From a virus: DNA of 27,281 bases. Location: positions 1-27,281 of the IMG/VR virus record IMGVR_UViG_3300025418_001582. One strand, written 5' to 3'. The notes under the pieces were generated by a model. It made no database searches. It had not been told where the DNA came from and saw only the letters and a program-made list of their open reading frames with translations. Made by a program: the position numbers and the translations under genes. Below, piece after piece: positions 355 to 27,281 of the stretch (the stretch's first letter is position 1; the number at the start of each line of letters is the position of its first letter).

Positions 355-993
355 ATGGCTTTGTACCTAAAAGAGAACTTGACGTTCGACCGGGCAGGGA
401 TTGTAGTTGAATCTACAGACTCTGCCGACGGGAAGGGTAAAGATCTCTATATGAAAGGGATATTCATTGAAGGAGGCGTTAAAAACGCTAACGAACGTGT
501 ATATCCCGTTCACGAAATTCAAAAAGCTGTCTCTACTATTAATGACCAAATCAAAGGTGGCTATTCCGTTTTAGGCGAAGTAGATCATCCAGATGACTTA
601 AAGATTAACTTAGACCGTGTTAGCCATATGATCACAGATATGTGGATGGATGGCCCATGCGGACATGGAAAATTAAAAGTGTTACCAACTCCAATGGGTA
701 AACTAGTTGAAGCTATGATTACATCAGGCGTAAAACTAGGCGTTAGCTCACGTGGATCTGGTAATGTTAACGAAGGAAGTGGACACGTTAGTGATTTTGA
801 AATCATTACCGTTGACATTGTAGCCCAACCAAGCGCACCTCATGCCTATCCTAAAGCAATTTATGAAGGTCTAATGAATTGGCGTGGTGGCGAAAAAGTA
901 TTTGGCCTGGCACGTGAAGCCAGTCAAGATCAAAAAGTACAGAAGTACCTGCAAGAATCCATCAAAGGGTTCATCAAAGAATTAAAACTATAG
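355..993 (+). CDS. 21: Prohead core protease, T4 gp21-like (peptidase family S80)
   Basis: 212 residues, close to T4 gp21. This serine protease sits inside the prohead and cleaves scaffold and capsid proteins after L/I-x-E sites during head maturation. Seen here: GEVDHPDD with His78 and GVKLGVSSRGSG with Ser131/Ser132, which match the His and Ser motifs of S80 proteases, plus a conserved-looking segment ITVDIVAQPSAPHAYP (151-166) with Asp154. The early ANERVYP segment (45-51) is also typical. A purine-rich AGGGAA lies upstream of the ATG. The stop is followed after 12 bases by gp22, and gp23 comes next, reproducing the T4 order 21-22-23, which makes the call strong. Confidence 0.93.
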   Translation: MALYLKENLTFDRAGIVVESTDSADGKGKDLYMKGIFIEGGVKNANERVYPVHEIQKAVSTINDQIKGGYSVLGEVDHPDDLKINLDRVSHMITDMWMDGPCGHGKLKVLPTPMGKLVEAMITSGVKLGVSSRGSGNVNEGSGHVSDFEIITVDIVAQPSAPHAYPKAIYEGLMNWRGGEKVFGLAREASQDQKVQKYLQESIKGFIKELKL

Positions 994-2143: not shown

Positions 2144-3322
2144 ATGACACAAGCATTATTAGAAAGCCGTTGGGGCGAAACCAAAGAAGCCCTGTTAGAA
2201 GGCTTACAAGGTTCTAAGCGCACCACAATGGGTGTTATCTTAGAAAACACTCGTAAAATGTTGGCAGAAAACGCAACAGCAGGTTCAACACAAGCAGGTA
2301 ACGTAGCTACACTAAACCGTGTAATTCTACCAGTTATCCGTCGTGTTATGCCTACAGTTATCGCTAACGAAATCGTTGGTGTACAACCAATGACAGGCCC
2401 AGTTGCTCAGATTCATACACTACGTGTACGTTACGCTGATCCAGTAACTGATTCTTCAGGCTATGCAACTAACGTTGCCGCTGGCGATGAAGCATTGAGC
2501 CCATTCAAGATTGCAACAGCATACTCTGGTAGCAATGCTACTGGTCAAGCTACTTCAACAGCCGCACTTGAAGGCGTTGCAGGTAACCGTATCAACGTTC
2601 AAATCTTGAAACAAGTTGTTGAAGCTAAAACACGTAAGTTATCAGCTCGTTGGACATTTGAAGCCGCTCAAGACGCACAGTCTATGCACGGTTTGGATGT
2701 TGAAGCTGAAATTATGGCAGCTTTGGCACAAGAAATCACAGTTGAAATTGACCAAGAGATCCTAGGTTCTCTACGTGCATTAGCGGCTACTGATTACACA
2801 TATGATCAGTCAGCAGTTTCAGGTACAGCTACATTCGTTGGTGACGAGCATGCCGCATTGGCAGTTCTAATCAACCGTACAGCTAACTTGATCGCTCAAC
2901 GTACACGTCGTGGTGCTGGTAACTGGGCAGTTGTTTCCCCAGCTTCTTTAACAGTACTACAATCTGCTACAACTAGCGCATTTGCTCGTACAACAGAAGG
3001 TACTTTCGAAGCTCCTACAAATACTAAATTTGTTGGTACTTTGAACGGTGCAATGAAGATTTATGTTGACGGTTATGCAAACGACAGCCAAGCAGTTCTA
3101 GTTGGTTATAAAGGTTCTAGCGAGGCAGATGCTGCCGCGTTCTATTGCCCATATATCCCATTGATGAGCTCTGGTGTTGTTCTAGATCCAAGCACATTCG
3201 AACCAGTAGTTTCATTTATGACACGTTATGGTTATGTAGAGTTGACAAACACAGCGTCATCTCTAGGTAACGCTGGCGACTACGTTGGTGAGATCGCTGT
3301 ATCTAACCTATCTTTCCAGTAA
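2144..3322 (+). CDS. 23: Major capsid protein, T4 gp23-like
   Basis: 392 residues, shorter than T4 gp23 (521). Hallmark gp23 motifs are present in order: GVQPMTGPVAQIHTLRVRY (79-97), RWTFEAAQDAQSMHGLD (169-185) followed by EITVEIDQEILG, NWAVVSPASLTVL (260-272), and near the C-terminus YCPYIPLMSSG with DPSTFEPVVSFMTRYGY (334-364). A likely gp21 cleavage site is LAE at 40-42 followed by Asn, which would remove a leader of about 42 residues (T4 removes 65). The N-terminus has several Glu-rich helical segments like the T4 delta domain. AAGGAAA precedes the ATG. A strong terminator follows the stop, so this gene closes the head operon. Confidence 0.97.
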   Translation: MTQALLESRWGETKEALLEGLQGSKRTTMGVILENTRKMLAENATAGSTQAGNVATLNRVILPVIRRVMPTVIANEIVGVQPMTGPVAQIHTLRVRYADPVTDSSGYATNVAAGDEALSPFKIATAYSGSNATGQATSTAALEGVAGNRINVQILKQVVEAKTRKLSARWTFEAAQDAQSMHGLDVEAEIMAALAQEITVEIDQEILGSLRALAATDYTYDQSAVSGTATFVGDEHAALAVLINRTANLIAQRTRRGAGNWAVVSPASLTVLQSATTSAFARTTEGTFEAPTNTKFVGTLNGAMKIYVDGYANDSQAVLVGYKGSSEADAAAFYCPYIPLMSSGVVLDPSTFEPVVSFMTRYGYVELTNTASSLGNAGDYVGEIAVSNLSFQ

Positions 3323-4428: not shown

Positions 4429-5377
4429 AGGTGATGACCTTGCTTACCATATTGGTTTGCTAGGTAGAGACCTACGGAAAATTAAATCTGATGTATTGTT
4501 TATTCCCTTAAACAATCACTACGGCCTACACTCTGATACTTTTGTTGAAGAAACAGTTGAGCGCAGTCAATCTGCACGTGCTGTTATTTTTTATGACTTA
4601 GTTAATGCTGGCGATTGGGAACAGTTGAGATTTGCTAGTTTCATTAAACAGTTTCCTCACACAAACAAACATTACCTAACAGTTAATCAAAGTGGATTTC
4701 AGTTGCGTGATGTTAATACGATTCCTTGGGACTTTATGTGGAATCGTTTCAAGGCCTACTATACAGAACCTATACCTGACAATTTGTATTTGCATCATTG
4801 GGCTGGGCCTAATGCCTACATATTGCCTGACTTGACTGTTGGCAGTCACAGTAAAAAATTTATGAGCCTGTGTGGAAGAGAATATGGTTACCGTACTCAC
4901 CTGTATGAAGTAGTACAACAGTATGACGGTTACATCAGTAATAGAAGCAAAGGACGTTATCTTGAAGGTGAGGAAGTTATAGGAGCATTTAGACCTGTAC
5001 CAAATAGTTTTTATCAGGACAGTTGCTTGAGTGTATATGTTGAAAGTAATTGTATAAGGCCAGAGCTTATACATATTACAGAAAAAACTTTTGACCCTTT
5101 GGTTAAAGGTCATTTTATATTGCCATACAGCAATCCAGGAACTGTTCGTCGAATACAAGATTTAGGATTTAGATTGCCAAACTTTATAGACTACACTTAC
5201 GATCAAGAGCAGGATCCACAATTACGATTTGAGCGAGTGGTTAAAGAATTTGAACGGTTAGTTAATTTAGATCTACAGCAGTTACATTCACAACACACAG
5301 CCCTATTCAAACATAATCAAACCTGTATACATACCATTCCTTATGATGATAGGGTATTAAGGATTTTTGATGTATAA
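4403..5377 (+). CDS. Putative glycosyltransferase (GT10/fucosyltransferase-like C-terminal motif)
   Basis: 324 residues, no signal peptide or membrane segment. The C-terminal half carries a motif set I associate with GT10-type and related phage glycosyltransferases: KKFMSLCGREYGYRTHLYE (151-169), a YDGYISNRSKG segment (174-184), then HITEKTFDPLVKGHFILP (224-241), SNPGTVRRIQDLGF (243-256) and FIDYTYD (261-267) ahead of a charged helix. The T-E-K-T-F-x-P-L element followed by a G-x-F-I strand fits the nucleotide-sugar-binding part of the fold. The N-terminal half (1-140) has no motif I know. The gene starts inside the preceding SGNH gene and overlaps the next one by eight bases, so the three form an operon. 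Sugar donor and acceptor are unknown, and the family assignment is by eye. Confidence 0.55.
   Translation: MITTFQGYEGDDLAYHIGLLGRDLRKIKSDVLFIPLNNHYGLHSDTFVEETVERSQSARAVIFYDLVNAGDWEQLRFASFIKQFPHTNKHYLTVNQSGFQLRDVNTIPWDFMWNRFKAYYTEPIPDNLYLHHWAGPNAYILPDLTVGSHSKKFMSLCGREYGYRTHLYEVVQQYDGYISNRSKGRYLEGEEVIGAFRPVPNSFYQDSCLSVYVESNCIRPELIHITEKTFDPLVKGHFILPYSNPGTVRRIQDLGFRLPNFIDYTYDQEQDPQLRFERVVKEFERLVNLDLQQLHSQHTALFKHNQTCIHTIPYDDRVLRIFDV
5359..5363 (+). promoter_or_regulatory. Ribosome binding site AAGGA that fixes the start at 5370
   Basis: AAGGA lies six bases before ATG 5370. A TTG in the same frame at 5367 is possible, but the spacing favours the ATG. The site lies inside the end of the glycosyltransferase-like gene. 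Confidence 0.7.
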
Positions 5378-6248
5378 GTTTTATACCGAGCTTGATTTTA
5401 ACTCAAGCATAGATAACCGGCATAAAGACTGGTCGCCTGACAATCCCTACTCCTACAGGTGTTGGTATACAGAAGATATTGCAGGAAAAGACACACTTTT
5501 GCTTACTGTAGGCGACTCATGGACCTGGGGTGATCACCTGGGATCAATTGACTGGGACAAGTCAAGTGATGACCCTGTACGTTTGACTCAAATTTTTGGC
5601 AGACTGCTAGCTGATCGGTTAGATGCTGATTGGGTTAACTTAGCACGACCTGGTTGTAGTAATTATTGGATGCTAGAACAGTTAATGGATATACAACCGC
5701 ATTTAGCCAACAACCAATATAAGAGAGTTGTAGCAGTTGTTACCCTAACTGAAGATCTAAGAGAAGCAACCTATACACGCAGACTTGATGTTGCTAGACC
5801 ATATAAAGATTTTTGGGATCGTAGCAAATCAATCGAAGGATTCCTAATTCAAGTTGAGGATTTTTTATTTTATAACTTAAAAAGATATTTTGATCAACTA
5901 CCCAATGTTGATGTATATGTTGGTAGAGCATTTACTGATACGTGGCCTCAACACAAACAAGAATTTCTATTAGAAAAAACTTGGTGTGATGTAATACAAG
6001 ATCATGTACAGTTCTCTGACTATCAAAGACCTGTTCCGTTCATTGGACAAATGTCAATTGATCCCTTACGTGATAAGTTTATAACTACCGCAGAACAAAA
6101 AGAAGAGTTTCTTGAAATAATGAATCGTGTTGATAGTCGGTGGCGTTTTCTTGGTGCCAGTGAATATAATCTTAAAGGTAGTACATATCATCCTAATCCT
6201 GCTGGACACAAACTTTGGGCAGACTATGTTTTTTCACAATTACGATAA
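5370..6248 (+). CDS. SGNH/GDSL-like hydrolase, second copy
   Basis: 292 residues from the ATG. SGNH block I is TVGDSWTWGDHLG (46-58, nucleophile candidate Ser50), block II is VNLARPGCSNYWM (89-101), and block V is TYHPNPAGHKLWADYVF (272-288) with His274. As in the first copy, the residue three before the His is not Asp (here Ser271). A preceding aromatic, Asp-rich N-terminus (1-40) and a middle helical region (about 140-205) are extra. The two SGNH proteins share block layout but little else, so they look like old paralogs or separate acquisitions rather than a recent duplication. The gene overlaps the glycosyltransferase-like gene by eight bases. Its stop codon lies within the next late promoter. 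Confidence 0.78.
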   Translation: MYKFYTELDFNSSIDNRHKDWSPDNPYSYRCWYTEDIAGKDTLLLTVGDSWTWGDHLGSIDWDKSSDDPVRLTQIFGRLLADRLDADWVNLARPGCSNYWMLEQLMDIQPHLANNQYKRVVAVVTLTEDLREATYTRRLDVARPYKDFWDRSKSIEGFLIQVEDFLFYNLKRYFDQLPNVDVYVGRAFTDTWPQHKQEFLLEKTWCDVIQDHVQFSDYQRPVPFIGQMSIDPLRDKFITTAEQKEEFLEIMNRVDSRWRFLGASEYNLKGSTYHPNPAGHKLWADYVFSQLR

Positions 6249-10422: not shown

Positions 10423-12167
10423 TGCCAATTTCACAAACTAACCAAGTAGATTATCTCTTTAAGAAAATTGGTTATAGCGTAGCCAAGTCTGCCAACGCGA
10501 CAGTGAAATCGCCATCCAACGAAACAGTGGCTAGCCCTCTTACTATTAGGGGCGACAATATTTGGATTCAGTCAGGTAGTATTCCTGCAACGCCGCCTGG
10601 CAGTTCTGGGGGTGTAGTAACAGTCTACAGTGATGCTACAACCAACAGCGTAAAAACTACAGCAGATGCAACTAGTCCAACATCTGTAACTTGGAAAACT
10701 GGTATTACCAATTGGATTGACCCAAGTTTTAATTCCAACTATCAGGTTAAAATTTATCTTGATACCAGCACTAGTACTACACCACAGTCAACTGGCACAC
10801 AGTTATTCCCAGATGGTACAGGCAACAACGACAGTTGGTTCTTTGACTACGATGCTGGAACTGTAAACTTTCCAGACAATATTCCTAGTGTGGTTACTGC
10901 TAATCCAACAAAAGTTTTATATGTGGTGGGTTATGCTTATACTGGTTTGTATGGTATTTCCAACAGCGCCGCAGTTATCACAGGTACAGTTAATACTGCC
11001 AACGTTAGTCTGTATACCAACGTAACAAATTCTAGCACCAACTACAATTACAATCTATTGTTTGGTAACACAGCATCGGGTAACACACAGGTATTTGACA
11101 ATACTGCAATTACCTATAATCCAAACACAGGTAATCTAACCGTAGCCAACGTCATTGCAACTCATTATGGTAACATTGTTGGTAACGTTATTACTCCGAC
11201 ACAAACATTAATTACCACAGTTGGTACATTAACTAACTTAACTGTGGCTGGCAATACTACAAGTGGTAACGTGTTATCACCTAATGGCAATATTGGCAAT
11301 TTAATTTCTAACTTGTCAACTATTGTAACAGGTAACATTACAACTATTAATGCCAACTTGGCAACTGTTAATTACATCAACAACAATGTACTTGTTGCTA
11401 ATACGGCAACCATCACAGGACTGACAGTAACAGCCAATATCACTGCTGGTAATCTATATACCACACAGGCTAACCTAACTACCTTAATTGCCACAGGTAA
11501 CATTACTGCCACCAACTTTGTTGGCGTACAATTTGGTAACGTTAACACTAACAACATCATTGGTGGTACAGGGACTATTAATATTGTTCCTGGTACTAGC
11601 GGAGTAGTTAACGTAAACTCAACCACAGCTTTGTTGATTCCAAGTGGTACACAATCACAACGTCCAACTGGTGTAGCTGGTTATATTCGCTACAATCAAA
11701 ATACCAACATTGTTGAATATTATAATGGTAGTGCTTGGATTCCGGTAACTACCACAGTAAGCGATCAAACTTTTAACGGTGACGGCTCAAGCCAAACATT
11801 CAATTTAAGCAATCCAACCAATGCCGCTGGTATACTTGTAAGTATCAACGGTGTGGTACAAAACCCTAACACATACACAGTCAATGGCCCAGGCACACAA
11901 ATTACTTTTGTTGAAGCACCGTTAACAACTGACTCAGTAGATATTCGTTATCTATCTGTTGCAGTAACAAACAACGGCACTTTTGCAACAGATGTAACAG
12001 TTACAGGAAATATTACCATAACTGGATTACTATCAAGTCCTCTAACAACAAAAACATCGACTAGCACAGGCACCGCAGGACAAATTGCCTATGATGCAAA
12101 CTACATTTATATCTGTACTGCAACCAACACCTGGAAACGTGTAGCCCTATCTGGCGGCGTATTCTAA
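10422..12167 (+). CDS. Fibre protein with conserved N-terminal domain and repetitive shaft (581 aa)
   Basis: 581 residues in three parts. Residues 1-180 form a distinctive domain (VDYLFKKIGYSVAKSAN, SPLTIRGDNIWIQSGSIP, NWIDPSFNSNYQVKIYLD, DSWFFDYDAGTVNFPDNIP) that looks like a virion-attachment domain. Residues 180-400 are a low-complexity Thr/Asn/Val shaft with GN[IV]-type repeats, likely a trimeric beta structure. Residues 405-514 hold the YIRYNQ/EYYNGSAW unit plus NGDGSSQTFNL and VSINGVVQNP. The C-terminus (545-581) carries GTAGQIAYDANYIYICTATN followed by TWKR, a strand pair common at phage-fibre ends. It starts inside the stop of the preceding gene (TAATG). Confidence 0.83.
   Translation: MPISQTNQVDYLFKKIGYSVAKSANATVKSPSNETVASPLTIRGDNIWIQSGSIPATPPGSSGGVVTVYSDATTNSVKTTADATSPTSVTWKTGITNWIDPSFNSNYQVKIYLDTSTSTTPQSTGTQLFPDGTGNNDSWFFDYDAGTVNFPDNIPSVVTANPTKVLYVVGYAYTGLYGISNSAAVITGTVNTANVSLYTNVTNSSTNYNYNLLFGNTASGNTQVFDNTAITYNPNTGNLTVANVIATHYGNIVGNVITPTQTLITTVGTLTNLTVAGNTTSGNVLSPNGNIGNLISNLSTIVTGNITTINANLATVNYINNNVLVANTATITGLTVTANITAGNLYTTQANLTTLIATGNITATNFVGVQFGNVNTNNIIGGTGTINIVPGTSGVVNVNSTTALLIPSGTQSQRPTGVAGYIRYNQNTNIVEYYNGSAWIPVTTTVSDQTFNGDGSSQTFNLSNPTNAAGILVSINGVVQNPNTYTVNGPGTQITFVEAPLTTDSVDIRYLSVAVTNNGTFATDVTVTGNITITGLLSSPLTTKTSTSTGTAGQIAYDANYIYICTATNTWKRVALSGGVF
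11838..11860 (+). repeat. 23-bp exact repeat, copy 1 (VSINGVVQ unit)
   Basis: Twenty-three bases encoding VSINGVV and flanks are identical to 16729-16751 in the next large fibre gene, although the surrounding sequence has diverged. It is a candidate recombination or gene-conversion tract. Confidence 0.85.
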
Positions 12168-12182: not shown

Positions 12183-12947
12183 ATGGGACTAAACATTGGG
12201 ACAGGAATTAAAATTGGTACAGGCATTGTAATTACTCCTATATTCACACCTCCACCACCAGTAGTAAATTCAAATCAAATATTATATTTAGATGGTCGTC
12301 AAACTAGCAGTTATCCTGGTACAGGTTCAACCTGGTATGACCTAAGCGGCCTTGGCAACAATGCCACTCTGTACAACAGTCCTACTTATGATGGTACCAG
12401 TCTAGTATTCTCTGGAGCAGGAACAGCACCTAGCCCGGGTACAGTAGGATCGGTGCAATACGGACAAGTGCCAAATGGTGTTTACTTTAACGGCGACTTT
12501 ACTATTAATACCTGGATCAAAATATCTGCCTACAACTACTGGCAACGTATTATTGACTTTGGTAACGGAGCCGGCAATAACTCTATACTATTAGCGTCAA
12601 CTTACGGTACATCGGGCTACCCTGGATTTTATGTTGGCAATGGTGGTAATAGTACACAGTTTCAATCTACTGCTCAACTATCCTATAATACCTGGTATAA
12701 TGTTGGCGCAACTATGTCAGGCACAACAGGAACTATATACGTAAATGGATCGGCCGCTGGCAGCCAAACTATGGGATATACAGCGGCAAACGTAACTCGT
12801 CAATATTGCTATATCGGACGTAGTGAATGGGCCGGAGACGGTATGTTCCAGGGTAGTATTGGCTCTATTTTGATATATAATCGTGCCCTAAGTTCTACGG
12901 AAATGCTGACAAATTTTAACGCACTACGTTCAGAATACAGCATATAA
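12183..12947 (+). CDS. LamG/concanavalin-A-like lectin domain protein
   Basis: 254 residues. A short Gly/Ile-rich N-terminus and a PPPPVV linker (about 23-28) are followed by one LamG-type jelly-roll (about 32-250): ILYLDGRQTSSYPGTGSTWY, then DLSG.GNNATL, YFNGDFTINTWIKI, WYNVGATMSGTTGTIYVNGS (171-190), and the C-terminal strand GSIGSILIYNRALSSTEM. The last motif is the typical end of phage and bacterial LamG_3 domains. Such domains bind carbohydrate or protein and would suit a receptor-binding tip. GGAG is at its ribosome binding site. It is the last gene of the 7073-12947 block. Two further LamG copies occur in the 24072-26249 gene. Confidence 0.88.
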   Translation: MGLNIGTGIKIGTGIVITPIFTPPPPVVNSNQILYLDGRQTSSYPGTGSTWYDLSGLGNNATLYNSPTYDGTSLVFSGAGTAPSPGTVGSVQYGQVPNGVYFNGDFTINTWIKISAYNYWQRIIDFGNGAGNNSILLASTYGTSGYPGFYVGNGGNSTQFQSTAQLSYNTWYNVGATMSGTTGTIYVNGSAAGSQTMGYTAANVTRQYCYIGRSEWAGDGMFQGSIGSILIYNRALSSTEMLTNFNALRSEYSI

Positions 12948-13014: not shown

Positions 13015-16000
13015 ATGGCCGTTACCCGTATTCAAAATAACCAGATTACCGATAAAACGATTACCTACGCAAAAATTGCGGATAATACGTTAACTGGTGG
13101 ACAGTTTAACCAAAATTTAACACTTAATTCCAACGTTACTATTGTTGGTAACTTGAGTATCAGTGGTAACACAACCACAATCCAATCAACAAACACATAC
13201 GTTAACGATCCATTGATTGTATTCAACAATGGATACACAGGCGCGGCAACATACGACATTGGTATGTTGGTGAACCGCAACTTGGCCAGCATGCCTGGCT
13301 TTGGCGCAGTTAACGCTTTCCTAGGTTGGAAAGAATCAGATCAAGCGTTTGAAGGTATTGCTACAGTTGAAACAGGAACAACTGCTGGCACAATTAATAA
13401 CTCAGGTTTTGCTAACTTACGTATTGGTAACGTAACAGCCAACAGCTTGACTCTAAGCACAGGTACCTTAACAGCAAGTAACGGTATTATCAATACACCA
13501 ATCTCAGGTAGCACAGGTTCCTTTACAACTTTATTTGGTACTAACTTCAGTACTGGTAATGCTCAAATCACAGGTGGTACAAGTTTTGTAGGTACAACAG
13601 GTACTCCAGTTGCTGGTGTTTATACAACCACAGCACAGATCCAAACTGCTATCACTCAATATGAAACTGTAGCAGTTGGTTTCTATAGTCCAAACGTATT
13701 CATCAACGGTGGTTACTTAAACAACTTAGCAAACATTGCCGCTGGCACGGCATTCCTTGCTACACTAAATTCAAGCACTGGTAACATTACAGCATTGAGC
13801 GGTACAAGTGCTAACATTATTACAGTCTACTCAGCAAACTTTGGATCACCAAACGTTCGAGTAACCGGTGGTTACTTAACTGGCTTAGCCAACGTAAGTA
13901 CAACATACGATACAGTAACAAACTTCTATACAGCCAACGCTGTAATTGCTGGTGGTTACATCAGTGCATTGAGTAATATTGGTGCCACCTACGGTACATT
14001 TACAAACTTATATGCGGCCAATGCTACAATCGCAAGTGGCACATTCACCGGTGGTGCTGTTAACGCAGTGGCTGGTAACATTACAACTGGCTACTTTGGT
14101 TCATTGAACACAGCCAACGCCGTAATCAGTGGCGGATACATTAGTGCTTTATCAAACGTAGCCGCAACATACGCAACATTTACAAACTTAGCATCAGGCA
14201 ACGCTGTAATTACCGGTGGTAGTATTACTGGTGACACTAGTGGTACATTTGTAACACTACAAGGTACAAACTTCTCAACAGGCAATGCTCAGATTACTGG
14301 TGGTAGTATTACAGGTCTAGTTCAATTAGCTGGACAATATGTTACAGCCACAACTGGTTTATCAACTGCCAACGCTGTTATTACAGGTGGTAGCGTTAAC
14401 TCTACTCCAATTGGTGGAACAACAGCCAGCTCGGGCGCATTTACAACACTAAGCGCAAGCAACCAATTATATGTAAGTACCAGTACAGCAAGTACAACAG
14501 CCAACACTGGTGCGTTAGTAGTTGCAGGCGGTGTTGGTATTGGTGGCGACTTAAACGTTGGTGGTAAATCGACTATTACAGGTAACTTAACGATTAGTGG
14601 TAACTTGAGTGTAACAGGTAATAGCGTAAGCATTGGTTCTAGCACATTAAGTGTTAACGATCCAATTATCAACTTACATACACCAAGCGACTTGACACCT
14701 TTAACAACCAATGATGGATTTGATATTGGTATCAAAATGCACTATTACAACGGTGTTGATAGTGCGGCATTCATGGGTCGTGCCAACGACACTGGATATC
14801 TAGAGTGGTATGGCGCAGGAACAGACATAGCCAACGTGTTCGTTGGTACTGCATACGGTGGTGCTAAATTTGGTTCCATGATTTTAGCCAATGCTCGCAC
14901 AGCCACAGGTGGTCTAAGTGCTAATACCGGTACGCTACAAGTATACGGTGATGGTAGTGTAAGTGGAAACTTGTATGTTGGCGGTACATTAACATTGCCA
15001 GGTATTACAGTTACTGGTACAGGTGGTGGTGCAAGCTCATATGCACCAAACTTCAGCTCACCAAACGTATTAATCACTGGTGGTAGTATTACAGGTATCA
15101 CTAGCGGTACATTTACCACACTACAAGCAACTAACTTTAGTTCTGGTAATGCTGTAATTACTGGTGGTAGTATTAGTGGTATTACTATTCCAAGCCTTGG
15201 TACTATTGCTATTACCAACCTTTCAACTGCTAATGCTGTAATCAGCGGTGGTTATATCAGTGCGTTAAGCAACGTTGCTGCCACATACGCAACATTTACT
15301 AACTTGGCATCAGGTAATGCTGTTATTACTGGTAGCCAAACTTATATTGGTACAAGTGGCACACCAATTGCTAACATTTATGCTAGCTTAGGTACATTTA
15401 CAACATTAAACACAACAACTGAGTACGCTACTAACCTTGGTAGTCCAAACTTAGTAGTCACTGGCGGTAGTATTAATAACACAGTTATTGGTAATGCCAC
15501 TCCGGCAGCCGCAACATTTACTACTGTGGTGTCAACAGGTACTGCTATCTATGCAGGTAACATTGTTGGTAACTCTACCACAGCAAGCACAAGCACAACA
15601 ACTGGTGCTTTAGTATTAACTGGCACAGGTGGTGCTGGTATTGGTGGTGCATTGAACGTTGGCGGTATCAGTACATTAGGCGGTAACCTAGTATTAACAG
15701 CCGCTACCAACACAAACAATAACACAACCGGCGCATTGGTAATTGCCAACGGTGGTATAGCAGTACTTGGTAATATCAACTCAGCGGGTCAGATGTTTAT
15801 TGGTTCGCTAGCACAGTCAACTCCATTAACAAGTGCAATCGCTGTTAAACGTGGCACAAGTATAACTGGTGCTGGTGTACAATATACACAAGACGCTTTA
15901 ATTAACGCAACAAATACTGGTTCAAGTGATTTTATTGCTTATCCAAACAACTATAACTTGTCAGTGGGTGACCAAGGTTGGATGGATATGGGCTTCACTG

Positions 16001-17387: not shown

Positions 17388-19304
17388 ATGGCATTAACTA
17401 GACCGCGCCTAGGGCAACTGATAACTAACGTAGTTAATTTAACCGATTCGATGACGGTTATTAACTCTGCGGCAACCCAGGCCAACGTTGACGTAGGTTT
17501 CATATTCAATCGTGCCGACGGTGTTAACTCTGTAGCAAACGTAGCCTTATACTGGAACGAATCACTACAAAGTTTTACATTTGCATCAACCAATGATTCT
17601 GGTGCAAATACAGCAAATATCAACCCAATTTCTTGGGCTAACATAACAGCCGGTAATATCACAGCCAATGGATTCTATTGGCCCAACGGTGCCAGTTATG
17701 GTGCCAGTATTATTGCCGCGCAGAGCGTATACTCAAATGCCAACGTAGCCGCTTATCTAGTAACAAACACCGGTAACTTACAAGCTGGTAACATTACCAC
17801 AGTTGGTATAAGTGGTAATATTTCAAACGTCAGTTACATTTTGGCCAACACTGGTATTTACAGTGGTAACGTACAAGCCAACAGTATCATTGTTGGTACT
17901 GGTTTGTATTTTTCAAACGGTACTCCATTCTCAACTGGTACAGCAAGCGTATCCGGCCTTAACGGTCAACTACAGTATAACAACAATGGTGTACTTGCTG
18001 GTGCCAACATCAGTTTCTTCAGTTCAAACGTTTCGTTAGTTTCAACCGCTAACATTACCACAACTGGTAACATTGTTGGTGGTGGTGTGCGTTCAACAAC
18101 CAGCGCAACTCCTCCGGCTAACCCGGTACCGGGCGACGTATGGTACAACAGCACAACAGATGCTATCTATCGTTACACACAAGATTCAACAAGCAGTTAC
18201 TGGTTAAATGTTTTTGCACCGTCAGTGACCAGCAACTCATCAATTATTACAACCACAACTAACTCTAATGCCAACGTGGCCAGTTATGTTACTGTGGCAG
18301 GTGGCGGATTCCCAGGTGGTGTATATTATATTCCCTATGGTAACATTGGTAACTACACAGGTAACACACAATTAGGTTCAAGTACCAACTTTTTCTACAA
18401 TAGTAGCAGTGGCATCCTGGCTGCACCGACAGGTGCATTCAATCAAATTAACGCACAGGTAAGTCCGTTTAACCTAATACCAACCACTATTAGCCAGATG
18501 AACTTTGGTAATGCCTCGACTACAATCTTTATGGGTGCGGCAAGCGGTACAGTACAAATGGCCGGTAACTTGACATTGCTAGCAGGGTCGGGCTATTTTG
18601 CTGGTGTATTCAACGAAAATGACACAAGATCGGGCGTGTTTGTTGGCAATACTGGTTCAGGAACTCCAACCCCACGTATTGGATTCTTTAACGGTAATAC
18701 CACACAAAACTGGGAGATAGATAACTACAACGGTCAGTTCCGTTGGTTTACTCCTGGCGTTACTCGTATGAACTTAGACGGTAACACCAACCAGCTAACT
18801 GTTTACGGTAACGTGTCGTCAACTGCTAATGTGATAGCCTCTAATGCCATTATCAGTGGTAACGCTGTAGTTAGCGGTCTTGGCGGAGTTAGTCAACCAA
18901 ACATTCCAGCGTTCCGTGTTATTGGTAGTGGTGGAACCCCTATTGCCGCAACAGCCAACGTAACCAGTAGTAATTTTACAGTTGATTTCAATCAAGGTGG
19001 ATACCTAAATACAACTACTGGGTTCTTTACAGCGCCAATAGCTGGATTGTATCAAGTATGTTTGGTAACAAGAACCAGTAGTAATACTAACAGTGGTATC
19101 CTTCAAGCAGTGGTACAGCAAAATTATAACGGTGGTAATAAAAATGTAATCATGATTGAGTACGGAACTAATACTTCTATGAACCACACTGGTGGTAGTA
19201 CCATTGTTAAGATGGCAGTGGGCGATAGTTTACAATTTAGAGTTCTTTCTGGCTCAATCAACTTTGATGGCAACGATAACTGGTCAGTGGCCTTTTTAGG
19301 ATAA
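17388..19304 (+). CDS. Tail fibre/adhesin with C-terminal C1q-like domain (638 aa)
   Basis: 638 residues. N-terminal 1-70 (MALTRPRLGQLITNVVNLTD, then VDVGFIFNRADG and LYWNESLQSF) is a copy of the module seen in the 7073 and 13015 genes. FYWPNGASYGASI followed by VYSNANVAAYL (96-124) is a module repeated many times in the next gene. GQLQYNNNGVLAGANI (193-208) and PGDVWYNSTTDAIYRY (248-263) are further fibre units. The C-terminus (about 505-638) has the C1q/TNF-like pattern: IPAFRVIG, FTVDFNQGGYLNTTTGFFTA (530-549), PIAGLYQVCLV, IEYGTNTSMNHTGGSTIVKM (590-609), AVGDSLQFRV and NWSVAFLG at the end. C1q domains form trimers and bind surface ligands, which suits a receptor-binding tip. It is the first gene of its block. 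Confidence 0.88.
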   Translation: MALTRPRLGQLITNVVNLTDSMTVINSAATQANVDVGFIFNRADGVNSVANVALYWNESLQSFTFASTNDSGANTANINPISWANITAGNITANGFYWPNGASYGASIIAAQSVYSNANVAAYLVTNTGNLQAGNITTVGISGNISNVSYILANTGIYSGNVQANSIIVGTGLYFSNGTPFSTGTASVSGLNGQLQYNNNGVLAGANISFFSSNVSLVSTANITTTGNIVGGGVRSTTSATPPANPVPGDVWYNSTTDAIYRYTQDSTSSYWLNVFAPSVTSNSSIITTTTNSNANVASYVTVAGGGFPGGVYYIPYGNIGNYTGNTQLGSSTNFFYNSSSGILAAPTGAFNQINAQVSPFNLIPTTISQMNFGNASTTIFMGAASGTVQMAGNLTLLAGSGYFAGVFNENDTRSGVFVGNTGSGTPTPRIGFFNGNTTQNWEIDNYNGQFRWFTPGVTRMNLDGNTNQLTVYGNVSSTANVIASNAIISGNAVVSGLGGVSQPNIPAFRVIGSGGTPIAATANVTSSNFTVDFNQGGYLNTTTGFFTAPIAGLYQVCLVTRTSSNTNSGILQAVVQQNYNGGNKNVIMIEYGTNTSMNHTGGSTIVKMAVGDSLQFRVLSGSINFDGNDNWSVAFLG

Positions 19305-22300: not shown

Positions 22301-24068
22301 TACTAACAATACTGCCGCAAACGTTAACCTATATACTTCTAACATTACCAGCAACATCAACGTTGGTAGTGCAACAAGTAACGTATATATAACCGGCAAC
22401 TTGGTCACTGGAGGCAACATTTATTCTAACATCATTATTAGTAATAATGGTGTGTTCTGGCCAAACGGTGTAAGTTTTGCAACCAGCGTCATTAGCGGTA
22501 TTGCTGTTTATAGTAACAGTAACGTAGCCGCATACTTAACACAGGGTGTTCCTGGTAATATCAACATCAACAACGGTGCCGGTATATACTGGACTGCCAA
22601 CGGTTTACCATATGGTTATGGTAACATTAACGTTCAAAACTATTTACAAAGTGGTCAGTTGGCCAACGTTCGTTTAGGTAATGCCCTTATTACTGGTAAC
22701 TTAACAGTACAAAACATCACTTACACTAACCAAGAAATTGTTACCTTAACAGATTTAGTTCAAGGTAACGTAACAGCCAACGCAAATACAGTACCTGGTT
22801 TTGGTTCAACCGTTGGTGCTATTACTGTACCTTATGGCGGTATTTACTCGGCAGGTAACATTGTAACAGGCCAAGCAGTTGCAACCACAAGTGGTTTCTT
22901 CTGGGCAGGTAACGGTCAAGTTTATGGTTATAGTAACGCGGCTGCCGCAACTTACTTAACTAGCGGCGCAACTACAGTAACAGCCAACTTAGGTAATATT
23001 ATTACAGCCAATGGTGTTTACTATGCCAACGGTGCTAGCTTTACAGCTGGCTTTACTAGTTATGCTAATGCTAACGTAGCCGGTTACTTACCAACCTACG
23101 CAGGTAACATTCTTGCCGCTAACGTCACATCTACTTCTTACTATTGGGCAGGTAATGGTGCTAGCTTGTACGGTAACACTGATATGGCAGGCTATGCTTA
23201 TCGTTACTTTATGCCTAACTTTACTGGCAACTTACAAGCTGGTAATATTTTTGTTTCTAACGCTAACGGCCTAAGTGGTAACGTAAGTGCCGCTAACGTA
23301 TTAGCTGGCGGTTACTTCTGGTCCAATGGTGCTCCGTTTATTACCAGCAACTATGGTAACGCTAACGTAGCCGCATATTTGCCAACATATCAAGGATTCT
23401 TGTTAAGTGGCCAATTGCGTGTTTTCAATAGTGCTAACATTGGTGGTAACGTTTATGCCGGTGCTAACTTAATTGCCAACGGTGAAAGTTATTTTGGTGG
23501 TAACGTATTTGTTAACGGCTTGTCTACACAAAGCAACGTTAACGTAATTACCAGCATTACCTATCAAAATACAAACTTGTCATTTGCTACTACACCATTT
23601 GCTCCTGTGGCAAACAGCGTGGTTGTATTCAGCGGATCGTTTGGTAGCTTTACTGGCAACACACCTTACTATGTATTGTCGGGAGCAACTACAACGTCAA
23701 TAACGGTGTCTACTACACCGGGTGGATCGGCGTTCAACAGTGGACAACCAATTTTAACTGCCGCAACAGGTGTAACTGGTACTCTTACTACAACCTATGT
23801 AGTTCCAACTCCAAGTTATAATGCCAACACCGGTGCTATTATTACCGCAGGTGGCATTGGCGTAGGTGGTAACTTAAACGTTGGTGGTAACTTAAACGTA
23901 AGCGGTAATATTACAGGTAGCTTCTACGGCAACACTTACGGCAACGTAACAGGTGGTAACATTTATACTAACACCAGAGTTGGCTTTACCTATAGTGGTA
24001 ATACAACCAGTGTAGTATATACAACCTACAATTCTGCGACCAACAGTATCGACACTATATTTGGATAA
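19311..24068 (+). CDS. Giant repetitive tail fibre/adhesin (1585 aa)
   Basis: 1585 residues, extremely rich in Asn, Gly, Thr and Ala, with few charged residues. The N-terminus FPLTPSNGQTTTVNGVTYQY (3-22), ending NTWTVV, is a short domain common at the start of phage fibres. The shaft mixes two repeating modules: TGA[LI]xV.GG.G..GN..VGGN (starts near 98, 138, 253, 385, 769, 964, 1168, 1507) and [YF][WY]xNG..YG... followed by YSNANVAAYL (near 178, 690, 737, 1048, 1092, 1197, 1236, 1278, 1335). LIGDGSGITNVAASQLAGTA (841-860) is another known fibre unit. A repeat-free island at about 1404-1500 precedes the last module. There is no C-terminal lectin or chaperone domain, so the tip may be supplied by the next gene. 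It follows the C1q fibre after six bases and precedes the LamG protein by three. Confidence 0.87.
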   Translation: MAFPLTPSNGQTTTVNGVTYQYNSTYNTWTVVAQPLPAYTGNIGNINLGSPDITVYGNLLPGSNVIYNLGNSTQSWNNISAGGNVVITSTTPVFGQYTGALQVAGGTWIGGSLAVWQKAVISGNLVAGSGTISTSATTGALVVSGAGGLGVGGDINVNGNVNAVGNVTAGNVLTNNLFYANGAPYVFTAYSNASVAAYLLNNTGNISAGNITVSGNLTVANIIYTNREVISTSETVQGNLVISATTASTSNVTGAIVSLGGIATQGVIYSTGTTLVLNNGIATTGNTGSIVLGDGIFTKTYGSAWSFPGSGISTTVVSSNLDAPAGTFAAPSIKFQGAQYGFYNPTGGTIATTGTAFVSNGSVTLGSGSSNVVVAATTTSTNTTTGALVVAGGAGIAGNAIVGGNIQATGTMQFGSGQGGLIFQTLVGGTSAAIYNTNIVPSAQNYALATNGAALNLNAPSGGGVYTSINNSIITTVQAGTPSSTQATGQSLVVSNGLGVTGASYFSGNVGAGGNLSVAGYANIAGNLYVGGSTTLANTTVSVNNSSVVQSGSHLTLANPTGGQTSIGFTFGGTSYGEVRVDNGGNFLLNAASGSFYFDNDLATGIPINLKGPGGITFQTVTNGTNNVNFPGNVTVGNLAVTGNITTINYETVNNTEYANTITATTVTAATIGNTGAQGTFGNITTTNGLYWANGVSYGSSITATLSTYSNANAQAYLTSGATGVTANLGNIITTNGVFWANGVTYGSGSFFTSNIIANAATPTTSSNTGAIIVPYGGLGVAGNIFVGGNLVGTYTNVTITSGGFTTTFDPYGNVTIANGSGNLIAGNVNAAFIGNLGARLIGDGSGITNVAASQLAGTAQTANVSIQSQINPSVSSGVFYPTFSNVQTGNSVLSTSTVYQYQPSTGNLTATNFVGGLWGAVQTPIQGNIIQFGNLINLSVGNGTILNGNVVANSNATSGNAVTGAIIVPYGGIGVGRDIYVGGNANIVGNLISTTITNNTAANVNLYTSNITSNINVGSATSNVYITGNLVTGGNIYSNIIISNNGVFWPNGVSFATSVISGIAVYSNSNVAAYLTQGVPGNININNGAGIYWTANGLPYGYGNINVQNYLQSGQLANVRLGNALITGNLTVQNITYTNQEIVTLTDLVQGNVTANANTVPGFGSTVGAITVPYGGIYSAGNIVTGQAVATTSGFFWAGNGQVYGYSNAAAATYLTSGATTVTANLGNIITANGVYYANGASFTAGFTSYANANVAGYLPTYAGNILAANVTSTSYYWAGNGASLYGNTDMAGYAYRYFMPNFTGNLQAGNIFVSNANGLSGNVSAANVLAGGYFWSNGAPFITSNYGNANVAAYLPTYQGFLLSGQLRVFNSANIGGNVYAGANLIANGESYFGGNVFVNGLSTQSNVNVITSITYQNTNLSFATTPFAPVANSVVVFSGSFGSFTGNTPYYVLSGATTTSITVSTTPGGSAFNSGQPILTAATGVTGTLTTTYVVPTPSYNANTGAIITAGGIGVGGNLNVGGNLNVSGNITGSFYGNTYGNVTGGNIYTNTRVGFTYSGNTTSVVYTTYNSATNSIDTIFG

Positions 24069-24071
24069 TCT

Positions 24072-26249
24072 ATGGCAACTATAGCAAGTAGATTAACCAA
24101 CACTGGCACGTTACTAGTAAATGGTACAATAGATGAATTTACCGGTGCACCTGTAGTCGATAGCAGTTTGACCATGTGGTTAGACTTTGGACAAACATCT
24201 AGTTATACAGGATCGGGCACAACAGTATACGATCTCAGTCCTGGGCGAACAGCAAACGTTACACTAGTCGGCTCTCCTACTTTTAATTCAACTGACGGCG
24301 GCGGTGCAGAAGTATTTAATGGTACCACACAGTACGGCAACGGTAGCGGAACACCACTGGGTCAAACAGCCTATACTAAATCTTTTTGGTTCAAACTATC
24401 TAGTTATGGAACCAATAACAACGTAGTCAGTGGCGATAGCCAGTTCAGTTATTTTGGTGGTGGAACAAAACTACAAAACGGACACAGTTCCTGGTCTAGT
24501 TTTGGTGCATTTACATCTGTAACAACATTCAACTTGAACACCTGGTATCATGCTTGTGTTACCTTTAATACAGCGACCGGTATGGCGCTTTATGTGAATG
24601 GGGTACTAGATTCTACTTATGTAAGTACTGGGGCGAATCCCACAAACGTAGCAGTAGGCGGAACTGGTAGGGTAGACATTGCACAATACGGCGGTGGCAA
24701 TTTTTTAGCCGGAAGTATTGGACAAGTTATGATATACAATCGTGCGCTAACGGCAGCCGAGGCACAACAAAATTATAATGCATTAGCACCACGTTATGGA
24801 TTAAAACAGTTAGCCAATATTGCTAACCCAACTAGACAGACTGCAAATACTATAACATCAAGTTTGTTTGATGAAGTTACCTATAATCCGACGGCTAGTT
24901 CATCTGCAATTAAAAATTTATTATCCTACTCTCAAGATTTTACAAATTCTGCCTGGGCTAACTATCAGCAATATGCTAATAGTGTTATTATAACTGGTAA
25001 TGTAACCACAGCACCAGATGGTACTTTAACAGCTGGAAAATTTGCTAGTAATAATGCCGTTTCAACTTACTATAGTTACTTCAGAGGTGCTATTACTATT
25101 AATCCAAATACAGCCTACACCTATAGTACATATTTCAAAGCGGCAGAAAGAACTTCAGGTAGTATGGTAATGTATACTACTGGATATAACAACACTATAA
25201 ATTTTGATTTATCTGCAGGAACAGTAACCGGTATAATACCAACAGATCCTGCGTTAACAATGACCGGAGGAATATCATCTGTTGGTAACGGTTGGTACAG
25301 AGTTTACTATACATTTAGTAAAACAGCATCTGACTACCCACAGTTCAAATATGGTCTCGATACAGGAAATATACCAGTAGGACAAGGTTTTTATGTTTGG
25401 GGCGCTCAGCTAGAAGCTTCATCTGCACCTACAATCTATCAAGGTGTTACTGCCGCTAATACATTAATTGCTTCAAGTACAGTGAGAAAAATTGATAGTA
25501 CTGGATCATACTATATACAGGGTGTGTACGATGAATACACAGGTGCACCAGTAGTTGACAACAGTTTAGTATTATGGCTTGATGCCGCTCAACCAGCAAG
25601 CTACCCTGGTACAGGCGCAACCTGGTACGATATGTCCAGCGGTATTAATTTTGGAACAGACACGATTGGATCTCCATCAACATTCAATGTAGCGCCACCA
25701 TCATTCAATATGAACAACACAACCTTGCGAGGTTTTGCGTCGTCGACGGGATCTTTACCAACCCTGGATACAGGTACTTTTACTATAGAAGCTTGGTTAC
25801 TACACACTAGTTTTAATGCAAGCAGTCAGTATAGTAATAAAATTTCTCACAGAGAAAATTATAATGTGTCAGGATTTAGATTTGGTGTAGCTACGCCTAG
25901 TGCATTGTCCACTGATACCACAGGTTGTCCGATATTTTGGACTAATCAAAGCGGGGGTAGTTTTAGCACATCTACGCCCTCATACCCAATTTTATTGAAC
26001 CAATGGTATCAAACTGTGGTAACCTATGATGGAACAACCTGTAAAGTTTATTATAACGGAACAGTATTAACTTCAACTACGGGTACTTTTGTTATTCCTA
26101 CTGGTAGAGGATACTATCTTGGCACAAACGAAAGTGGAATGACAAGTTTTAATGGAAATTTTTCCGCTTACAAACAATATAACCGTGCATTAACCCCAGA
26201 TGAAGTACAACAAAACTTCAATGCATTGCGCCGTAGATACGGATTATAA
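24072..26249 (+). CDS. Adhesin with LamG, carbohydrate-binding-like and LamG domains (725 aa)
   Basis: 725 residues. Domain order: a short N-terminus, LamG 1 (about 31-244: SSLTMWLDFGQTSSYTG, NTWYHACVTFN, ALYVNGVLDS, IGQVMIYNRALTAAEAQQNY), a linker, a jelly-roll like family 4/9 carbohydrate-binding modules (about 281-460: NLLSYSQDFTNSAWANYQQY, APDGTLTAGKF, NGWYRVYYTFS, GFYVWGAQLEASSAPTIYQ), then LamG 2 (about 497-725: SLVLWLDAAQPASYPGTGAT, FTIEAWLLHTSF, WYQTVVTYDGTTCKVYYNG, YNRALTPDEVQQNFNALRR). DEFTGAPVVDSSL (21-33) and DEYTGAPVVDNSL (487-499) introduce each LamG domain, so the two halves stem from an internal duplication. The protein likely binds glycans at a fibre tip. It is the last gene of its block, like the LamG gene at 12183. 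Confidence 0.88.
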   Translation: MATIASRLTNTGTLLVNGTIDEFTGAPVVDSSLTMWLDFGQTSSYTGSGTTVYDLSPGRTANVTLVGSPTFNSTDGGGAEVFNGTTQYGNGSGTPLGQTAYTKSFWFKLSSYGTNNNVVSGDSQFSYFGGGTKLQNGHSSWSSFGAFTSVTTFNLNTWYHACVTFNTATGMALYVNGVLDSTYVSTGANPTNVAVGGTGRVDIAQYGGGNFLAGSIGQVMIYNRALTAAEAQQNYNALAPRYGLKQLANIANPTRQTANTITSSLFDEVTYNPTASSSAIKNLLSYSQDFTNSAWANYQQYANSVIITGNVTTAPDGTLTAGKFASNNAVSTYYSYFRGAITINPNTAYTYSTYFKAAERTSGSMVMYTTGYNNTINFDLSAGTVTGIIPTDPALTMTGGISSVGNGWYRVYYTFSKTASDYPQFKYGLDTGNIPVGQGFYVWGAQLEASSAPTIYQGVTAANTLIASSTVRKIDSTGSYYIQGVYDEYTGAPVVDNSLVLWLDAAQPASYPGTGATWYDMSSGINFGTDTIGSPSTFNVAPPSFNMNNTTLRGFASSTGSLPTLDTGTFTIEAWLLHTSFNASSQYSNKISHRENYNVSGFRFGVATPSALSTDTTGCPIFWTNQSGGSFSTSTPSYPILLNQWYQTVVTYDGTTCKVYYNGTVLTSTTGTFVIPTGRGYYLGTNESGMTSFNGNFSAYKQYNRALTPDEVQQNFNALRRRYGL

Positions 26250-26266: not shown

Positions 26267-27281
26267 ATGGCAAAACTCTTAGGCGGAACACGAATATATG
26301 GTAATGCAACGGTTGATTCTAACCTAGTTATCAGCGGCGCAACAACCAGCATTAATACCACTACAGGTGCATTAACTATTGCAGGTGGTATGGGCGCACA
26401 GGGCAACATTTATGCCAATGCGTTTTATACAGTAAGCGGCTTATACTGGGCAGGTAACAACAACGTTATCAACGTAGGTAGTACAGGCGGTAACCCAACT
26501 GGTGCTTCTGGACAAATTCAGTACAACCAAGGTGGTGCGCTAGCGGCCGCTAACTTGATTTATTATATTGGTAACAATACCGTTGTTTCTAACTCGGGTA
26601 TTAATAGTGCCAATACTACCAGCGGTGCATTCCAAGTAGTGGGCGGTGTTGGTGTTACTGGCAACGTATGGGCTGGTAACATTTGGAGTACAAGTTTATA
26701 TACCAACAGCGGTGTATTCTGGTCAGGTAACTTACAGCCAATTTACTTAGGTAACGTTTTAAGTGCTAATAACTTAATCTTTACAAACAGTACAACCAAC
26801 ACACTACAAGTTAACGGTGGTGCCAACGTTGGTACTATTTTAACAGTCGGTAACACAATTACTGCTACAGGTAACATTGTTGCCGCTAGTGGGGTATCTA
26901 GTACAAGCGTAACAACTGGTGCTTTGGTAGTTGTTGGTGGTACAGGTATCAGTGGTAACTTAAACGTTGGTGGTAACGTAACAGTTGGTGGTAACATTAT
27001 ACCAACAGCTAACGTTACCTATAACCTGGGTAGTGCAACACAGCGATTTGCATCCTTGTACCTAAGCGGTAACACAATTTACATTGGTAGTGCCACAATT
27101 AGCGCAAGCTCTGGCTCAATGACCCTAACCACAGACACTGGTGGTAGCTTTAGTGTTACAGGTAGTATTGCAGGTCAAGGTACTGGTACATTTGGTAACT
27201 TGTTGGCCAACTCTGGTGTTGCAAGTAACGGTACAAACAGTGGTGCATTACAAGTAGTTGGTGGTGCCGGTATCACAGGTA
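26267..27281 (+). CDS. Repetitive tail fibre/adhesin, 5' part (3' end outside window)
   Basis: 338 complete codons are visible and the frame is open to the edge. The N-terminus MAKLLGGTRIYGNATVDSNL is probably a virion-attachment segment. TGALTIAGGMGAQGN (33-47), SGAFQVVGGVGVTGN (119-133), TGALVVVGGTGISGNLNVGG (217-236) and SGALQVVGGAGITG (325-338) are four copies of the TGAL module of the neighbouring fibres. YWAGN and FWSGN elements, GQIQYNQGGALAAANLIYY (82-100) and VTYNLGSATQRFASLYLSGN (250-269) are further shared fibre units. The nearest purine-rich stretch (AGG at 26251-26253) is 13 bases from the ATG, so the start lacks a good Shine-Dalgarno, but the N-terminal sequence supports it. It is at least the third giant shaft protein of this locus. 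Confidence 0.88.
   Translation, partial: MAKLLGGTRIYGNATVDSNLVISGATTSINTTTGALTIAGGMGAQGNIYANAFYTVSGLYWAGNNNVINVGSTGGNPTGASGQIQYNQGGALAAANLIYYIGNNTVVSNSGINSANTTSGAFQVVGGVGVTGNVWAGNIWSTSLYTNSGVFWSGNLQPIYLGNVLSANNLIFTNSTTNTLQVNGGANVGTILTVGNTITATGNIVAASGVSSTSVTTGALVVVGGTGISGNLNVGGNVTVGGNIIPTANVTYNLGSATQRFASLYLSGNTIYIGSATISASSGSMTLTTDTGGSFSVTGSIAGQGTGTFGNLLANSGVASNGTNSGALQVVGGAGITG

Follow-up and report, generated by a model that had tools for sequence, protein, structure and literature searches.

A 36-residue repeat in a T4-type phage fibre gene is identical in protein and saturated at silent sites

The window, that is, the whole 27,281-nucleotide stretch of DNA analysed here (IMG/VR record IMGVR_UViG_3300025418_001582, positions 1 to 27,281), is a ~27-kb viral contig of a T4-type phage. 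It encodes a prohead protease and a Gp23 major capsid protein, whose best named-phage matches, a Vibrio phage and very large Sinorhizobium and Pseudomonas phages, are 67-71% identical, and a long series of repeat-rich structural genes runs downstream of the Gp23 gene (Table 1). A GDSL-type acylhydrolase gene lies between the capsid and fibre genes, at 5367-6248. We also observed, at 12183-12947, 17388-19304 and 24072-26249, two structural genes with a concanavalin A-like lectin domain (Laminin_G_3) and one with a C1q-like domain; judged from these domains, they likely encode carbohydrate- or receptor-binding parts of the same fibre set. A 23-bp exact DNA repeat between genes, reported in an earlier note on this DNA, is present at 11838 and 16729, and a still longer exact repeat of 26 bp, GTGGTAACTTAAACGTTGGTGGTAAC, is shared by two structural genes (23866-23891 and 26952-26977).

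Table 1 Features of the window, in positions of the 27,281-nucleotide stretch
Feature	Position	Strand	Basis or remark
Prohead protease	355-993		Peptidase_S77, E 9e-26
Gp23 major capsid protein	2144-3322		E 1e-97
Repeat-rich fibre/structural protein gene, 1427 aa	13015..17298	+	ORF; weak PHROG 697 and tblastn matches
Additional 84-nt (28-aa) unit, in register immediately upstream	13846..13929	+	family D1; DNA 62% identical with copy 1 across 138 nt
Third, diverged copy, same unit type	13930..14037	+	26/36 residues in common with copies 1 and 2
Copy 1, 36-residue repeat (residues 366-401)	14110..14217	+	mostly A/C-ending codons
Second repeat type, ITGGSITG.TSGTF.TLQ.TNFS.GNA	14183..14316	+	overlaps copy 1 end; family D2, 75% identical to 15047-15180
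Second repeat type again (family D2), upstream of copy 2	15047..15180	+	
T-ending-codon-rich block, codons 706-795, contains copy 2	15130..15399	+	codon scans; alignment with relatives
Copy 2, 36-residue repeat (residues 738-773)	15226..15333	+	mostly T-ending codons

The 1427-aa fibre matches PHROG 697, annotated as structural protein, weakly (E 2e-7, residues 517-778), and gives weak tblastn matches to cyanophage structural and fibre proteins; no match was found in Pfam or in a sequence search against solved structures. Its repeat families are spaced at 84 nt, or 28 residues; the 36-residue stretch consists of one 28-residue unit and the beginning of the following one. Residues 285-474, modelled with AlphaFold as a single chain with 34 sequences, come out all-beta at low confidence (mean pLDDT 50), too low to establish the fold; the unit would probably belong to a beta-rich shaft repeat. 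Searches of public viral contigs with the neighbourhoods of the two copies recovered related repeats at 70 and 71 loci, with a consensus close to TNFSTGNAVITGGYI..L.N..ATT, and a degenerate DNA pattern search for the core NVAATYATFTN found no other record in the viral collection.

Copies 1 and 2 encode the same 36 residues, TANAVISGGYISALSNVAATYATFTNLASGNAVITG, and, as the earlier note described, 20 of the 36 codons differ between codons 366-401 and 738-773 while each residue is unchanged. No other exact protein repeat in the fibre gene comes near this length, the next being 14 and 11 aa. At the level of DNA, 22 of the 108 bases differ. At codon 15 of the unit, a serine, copy 1 has TCA and copy 2 has AGC; these belong to codon sets unconnected by single synonymous steps, and a switch needs a tandem change or an intermediate with another residue. 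The requirement for a tandem substitution between the two serine codon sets is described in PMC6872785. With the NG86 method, dS between the copies is about 2.0, which at saturation is merely a rough lower guide to age, and dN is 0.03, a value due only to the TCA/AGC serine. If every codon is drawn twice, independently, from the codon usage of this gene, 20.1 +/- 2.9 codons and 23.9 +/- 3.8 bases are expected to differ, compared to the 20 and 22 observed, and the silent sites are therefore saturated without excess. Chance accounts for the number of codon differences, but by no means for the protein identity of the two copies. An assembly artefact was ruled out as the source of the pair, since the collapse of repeats cannot create synonymous differences between copies.

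To place the pair among other sequences of the phage group, we surveyed 326 distinct long ORFs from fetched related phage loci and grouped 40-residue pairs by protein-identity class. At 26-27/40 identity, within-gene pairs had a median silent divergence of 0.82 of saturation, which dropped to 0.51 at 40/40; over the same range it fell from 0.89 to 0.46 for fibre segments between phages and from 0.88 to 0.42 for ordinary genes between phages. In every class below 38/40, within-gene repeats were less silent-diverged than between-phage segments, and in the 38-40/40 classes they were alike (0.60 and 0.51 for the within-gene repeats; 0.67 and 0.46, and 0.58 and 0.42, between phages). Identity and silent divergence follow one kind of curve, whether the pairs lie in a single gene, in different fibre genes or in ordinary genes, and at equal protein identity the silent divergence of within-gene repeats does not exceed that of homologous segments compared between phages. 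Short-read assembly may drop long DNA-identical repeats, which would shift the within-gene survey towards diverged pairs and leaves the window pair unaffected. Among exact matches of at least 36 aa, 0.9 of saturation or more was reached by 5 of 64 when both segments lay in one gene (one in the window, three in L080 and one in L039), by 11 of 146 when they lay in different repeat ORFs and by 14 of 178 when they lay in different non-repeat ORFs, and this last group includes a 75-aa stretch of the major capsid protein. As several matches come from the same genes, the counts are not independent. The pair is ordinary old repeat evolution for this phage group. In the fibre ORF of L080 (2506 aa), we observed a case more extreme than that of the window, in which a ~39-residue unit, AFTTGTFSSTLGVTGATTLSTATAGGLQAQAIGNVTPGT, is repeated many times over, unchanged in protein but with its codons strongly scrambled.

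Of the full-length relatives, the near-identical pair of records L008/L009, with a fibre of 1242 aa, and L010, with one of 1147 aa, are the nearest to the window, where the fibre has 1427 aa. The L008 unit corresponding to copy 1, TANAVVTGGYIAGISNISASYGTFTNFATGNAVITG, is identical to it at 25 of 36 residues and differs at 11 (dN 0.20 at dS 1.2), and the L008 unit at the place of copy 2, TANAVISGGYISALTNATITTASITNLTTTSLIPTN, matches at 21 and differs at 15, counted by eye. These two L008 units are unlike each other, and L010 has neither. Gene-wide silent divergence between the window and L008 is 0.77 of saturation, which is not greater than the 1.0 between copies 1 and 2 (sampling error about 0.14). 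The third copy differs from copies 1 and 2 with a dN of 0.19-0.23 at comparable silent distance. Because such other comparisons of the unit at similar silent distance give a dN of about 0.2, zero replacements in 36 residues is a tail event for this fibre gene. The earlier note had considered an old duplication under strong protein constraint, and this holds in part: the homology is old, with silent sites saturated, and the residues are held by purifying selection, but a fixed constraint on the exact sequence does not fit the 11/36 and 15/36 differences in L008. Across relatives, the exact 36-residue sequence is thus under no fixed constraint. The point of interest in this pair is that it is free of replacements while the same unit varies freely elsewhere.

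The two copies also differ in the kind of codon they use. Among third-base changes that gain or lose T between them, T is in copy 2 for 14 of 17 (binomial P 0.013), and codons 706-795 are rich in T-ending codons (scan P <0.002 to 0.04 over five window sizes). This block overlaps a stretch that, in the alignment, is absent from L010 and mostly missing from L008. In the same codon-usage block test, 15-16% of other ORFs also reach P<=0.05, and because equally strong blocks are not rare, the block does no more than suggest an import of copy 2. Copy 2 probably lies in a later-acquired block with a somewhat different codon history, whose source was either a relative or an internal duplication of older date.

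We consider it probable that the pair is a shuffled shaft cassette in which the protein was held and the silent sites were randomised. The earlier note had instead raised the possibility that selection keeps the DNA copies different, preventing recombinational deletion of the intervening 1.1 kb. T4-type phages recombine readily, and the longest DNA run common to the two copies is only 17 bp, both of which speak for such selection. However, the codon differences are at the random level, and silent divergence within genes is not above that of between-phage segments. The mismatches are also not spaced to break DNA runs; instead, identical codons are clumped, with a longest identical run of 5 codons in the window pair compared to 3.6 expected. 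Across the survey, the longest identical-codon run had a mean quantile of 0.69 for within-gene exact matches (0.74 averaged per ORF) and 0.57 between phages, where 0.5 is random. Moreover, the fibre gene contains more, not fewer, exact DNA repeats than its synonymous shuffles, with 76 identical 12-mer pairs compared to 31 and a longest exact repeat of 21 bp compared to 17.8, and 91 of 96 repeat ORFs likewise have more 12-mer repeats than their own shuffles. Codon scrambling selected against recombination is contradicted by these data, and we judge this explanation very unlikely. The clumping suggests that repeats in a single fibre gene exchange short tracts. Clumped identical codons in protein-identical repeats are a feature of the repeat ORFs of loci L008-L153 as well as of the window.

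The absence of replacements at saturation, set against 10-11 differences in 36 for the same unit elsewhere at similar silent distance, might instead indicate that the two copies were co-selected in this lineage to stay identical, for example to keep an inter-chain register or to bind one partner twice. This does not sit well with L008, whose units do not match each other, or with L010, which is without both; comparable tail pairs occur elsewhere without known pairing, and the AlphaFold model, at a mean pLDDT of 50, gives no structural support. We therefore regard co-selection as unlikely, and a lineage-specific form, in which assembly register or a shared partner forced replacements in both copies together, as quite unlikely. 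A version of the shuffled-cassette explanation is that copy 2 was imported whole from a related phage with its silent sites already diverged, and that the pair never was an in-genome duplication. The codon-usage block around copy 2 and its absence or reduction in relatives are consistent with this, as is the finding that phages commonly share fibre cassettes that are identical in protein yet saturated in their codons. Against it stand the lack of a donor, as the viral collection has no second record with the NVAATYATFTN core, and the fact that codon blocks of this strength are fairly common. Whole import is a serious possibility, though less likely than not.

Returning to a shaft cassette that is shuffled among fibres, we propose that the 28-residue unit is a widespread, probably beta-rich shaft repeat of T4-type phage fibres, and that shafts grow, shrink and are reshuffled through the duplication of units, their loss, or their uptake from related phages by recombination. 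Copies 1 and 2 share one old common ancestor, since which the silent sites have become fully randomised and the residues have been kept by purifying selection, the probable reason being that the unit has to fit into the fold of the repeating shaft. Copy 2 probably arrived later, together with its block. The saturation, the 28-aa period, the occurrence of the block among relatives and the lack of avoidance of DNA identity are observed, and the beta-shaft role, the direction of transfer and selection on the fold as the cause are inferred from them. A striking repeat with the same protein and different codons thus requires no special selection at the DNA level: in this phage group, stretches of 30-75 residues stay identical while silent sites saturate, both within fibres and between phages. 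The survey provides a baseline for recognising genuine codon scrambling, and modular, exchanged shaft units are indicated as a route of fibre length change.

A literature search on phage fibre repeats with synonymous divergence found no relevant paper, and we compared the fibre with known systems of related kinds. Like triple-stranded beta-helix fibres and spikes (e.g. T4 gp5, PMC4576200), it is a long virion protein with a regular short repeat and is predicted to be all-beta; unlike them, it has no sequence match to solved structures, and its model (mean pLDDT 50) is too poor for a comparison of folds. It resembles the T4-like cyanophage structural and fibre proteins of PHROG 697 in being a large, repeat-rich virion protein with a weak match to them over residues 517-778, but this match misses copy 1 and leaves most of the window protein without a counterpart. 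Polyubiquitin is the textbook example of repeats that keep the same protein sequence despite many synonymous differences; the explanations given by Nei et al. 2000 and other authors, as discussed in PMC10457151, are purifying selection with birth-and-death of repeats or, alternatively, slow concerted evolution. Ubiquitin is conserved between species, in contrast to the fibre unit, which is not conserved between related phages, and in the fibre only two of several copies are identical. In both systems, however, repeats within one gene combine identical protein with extensive synonymous differences.
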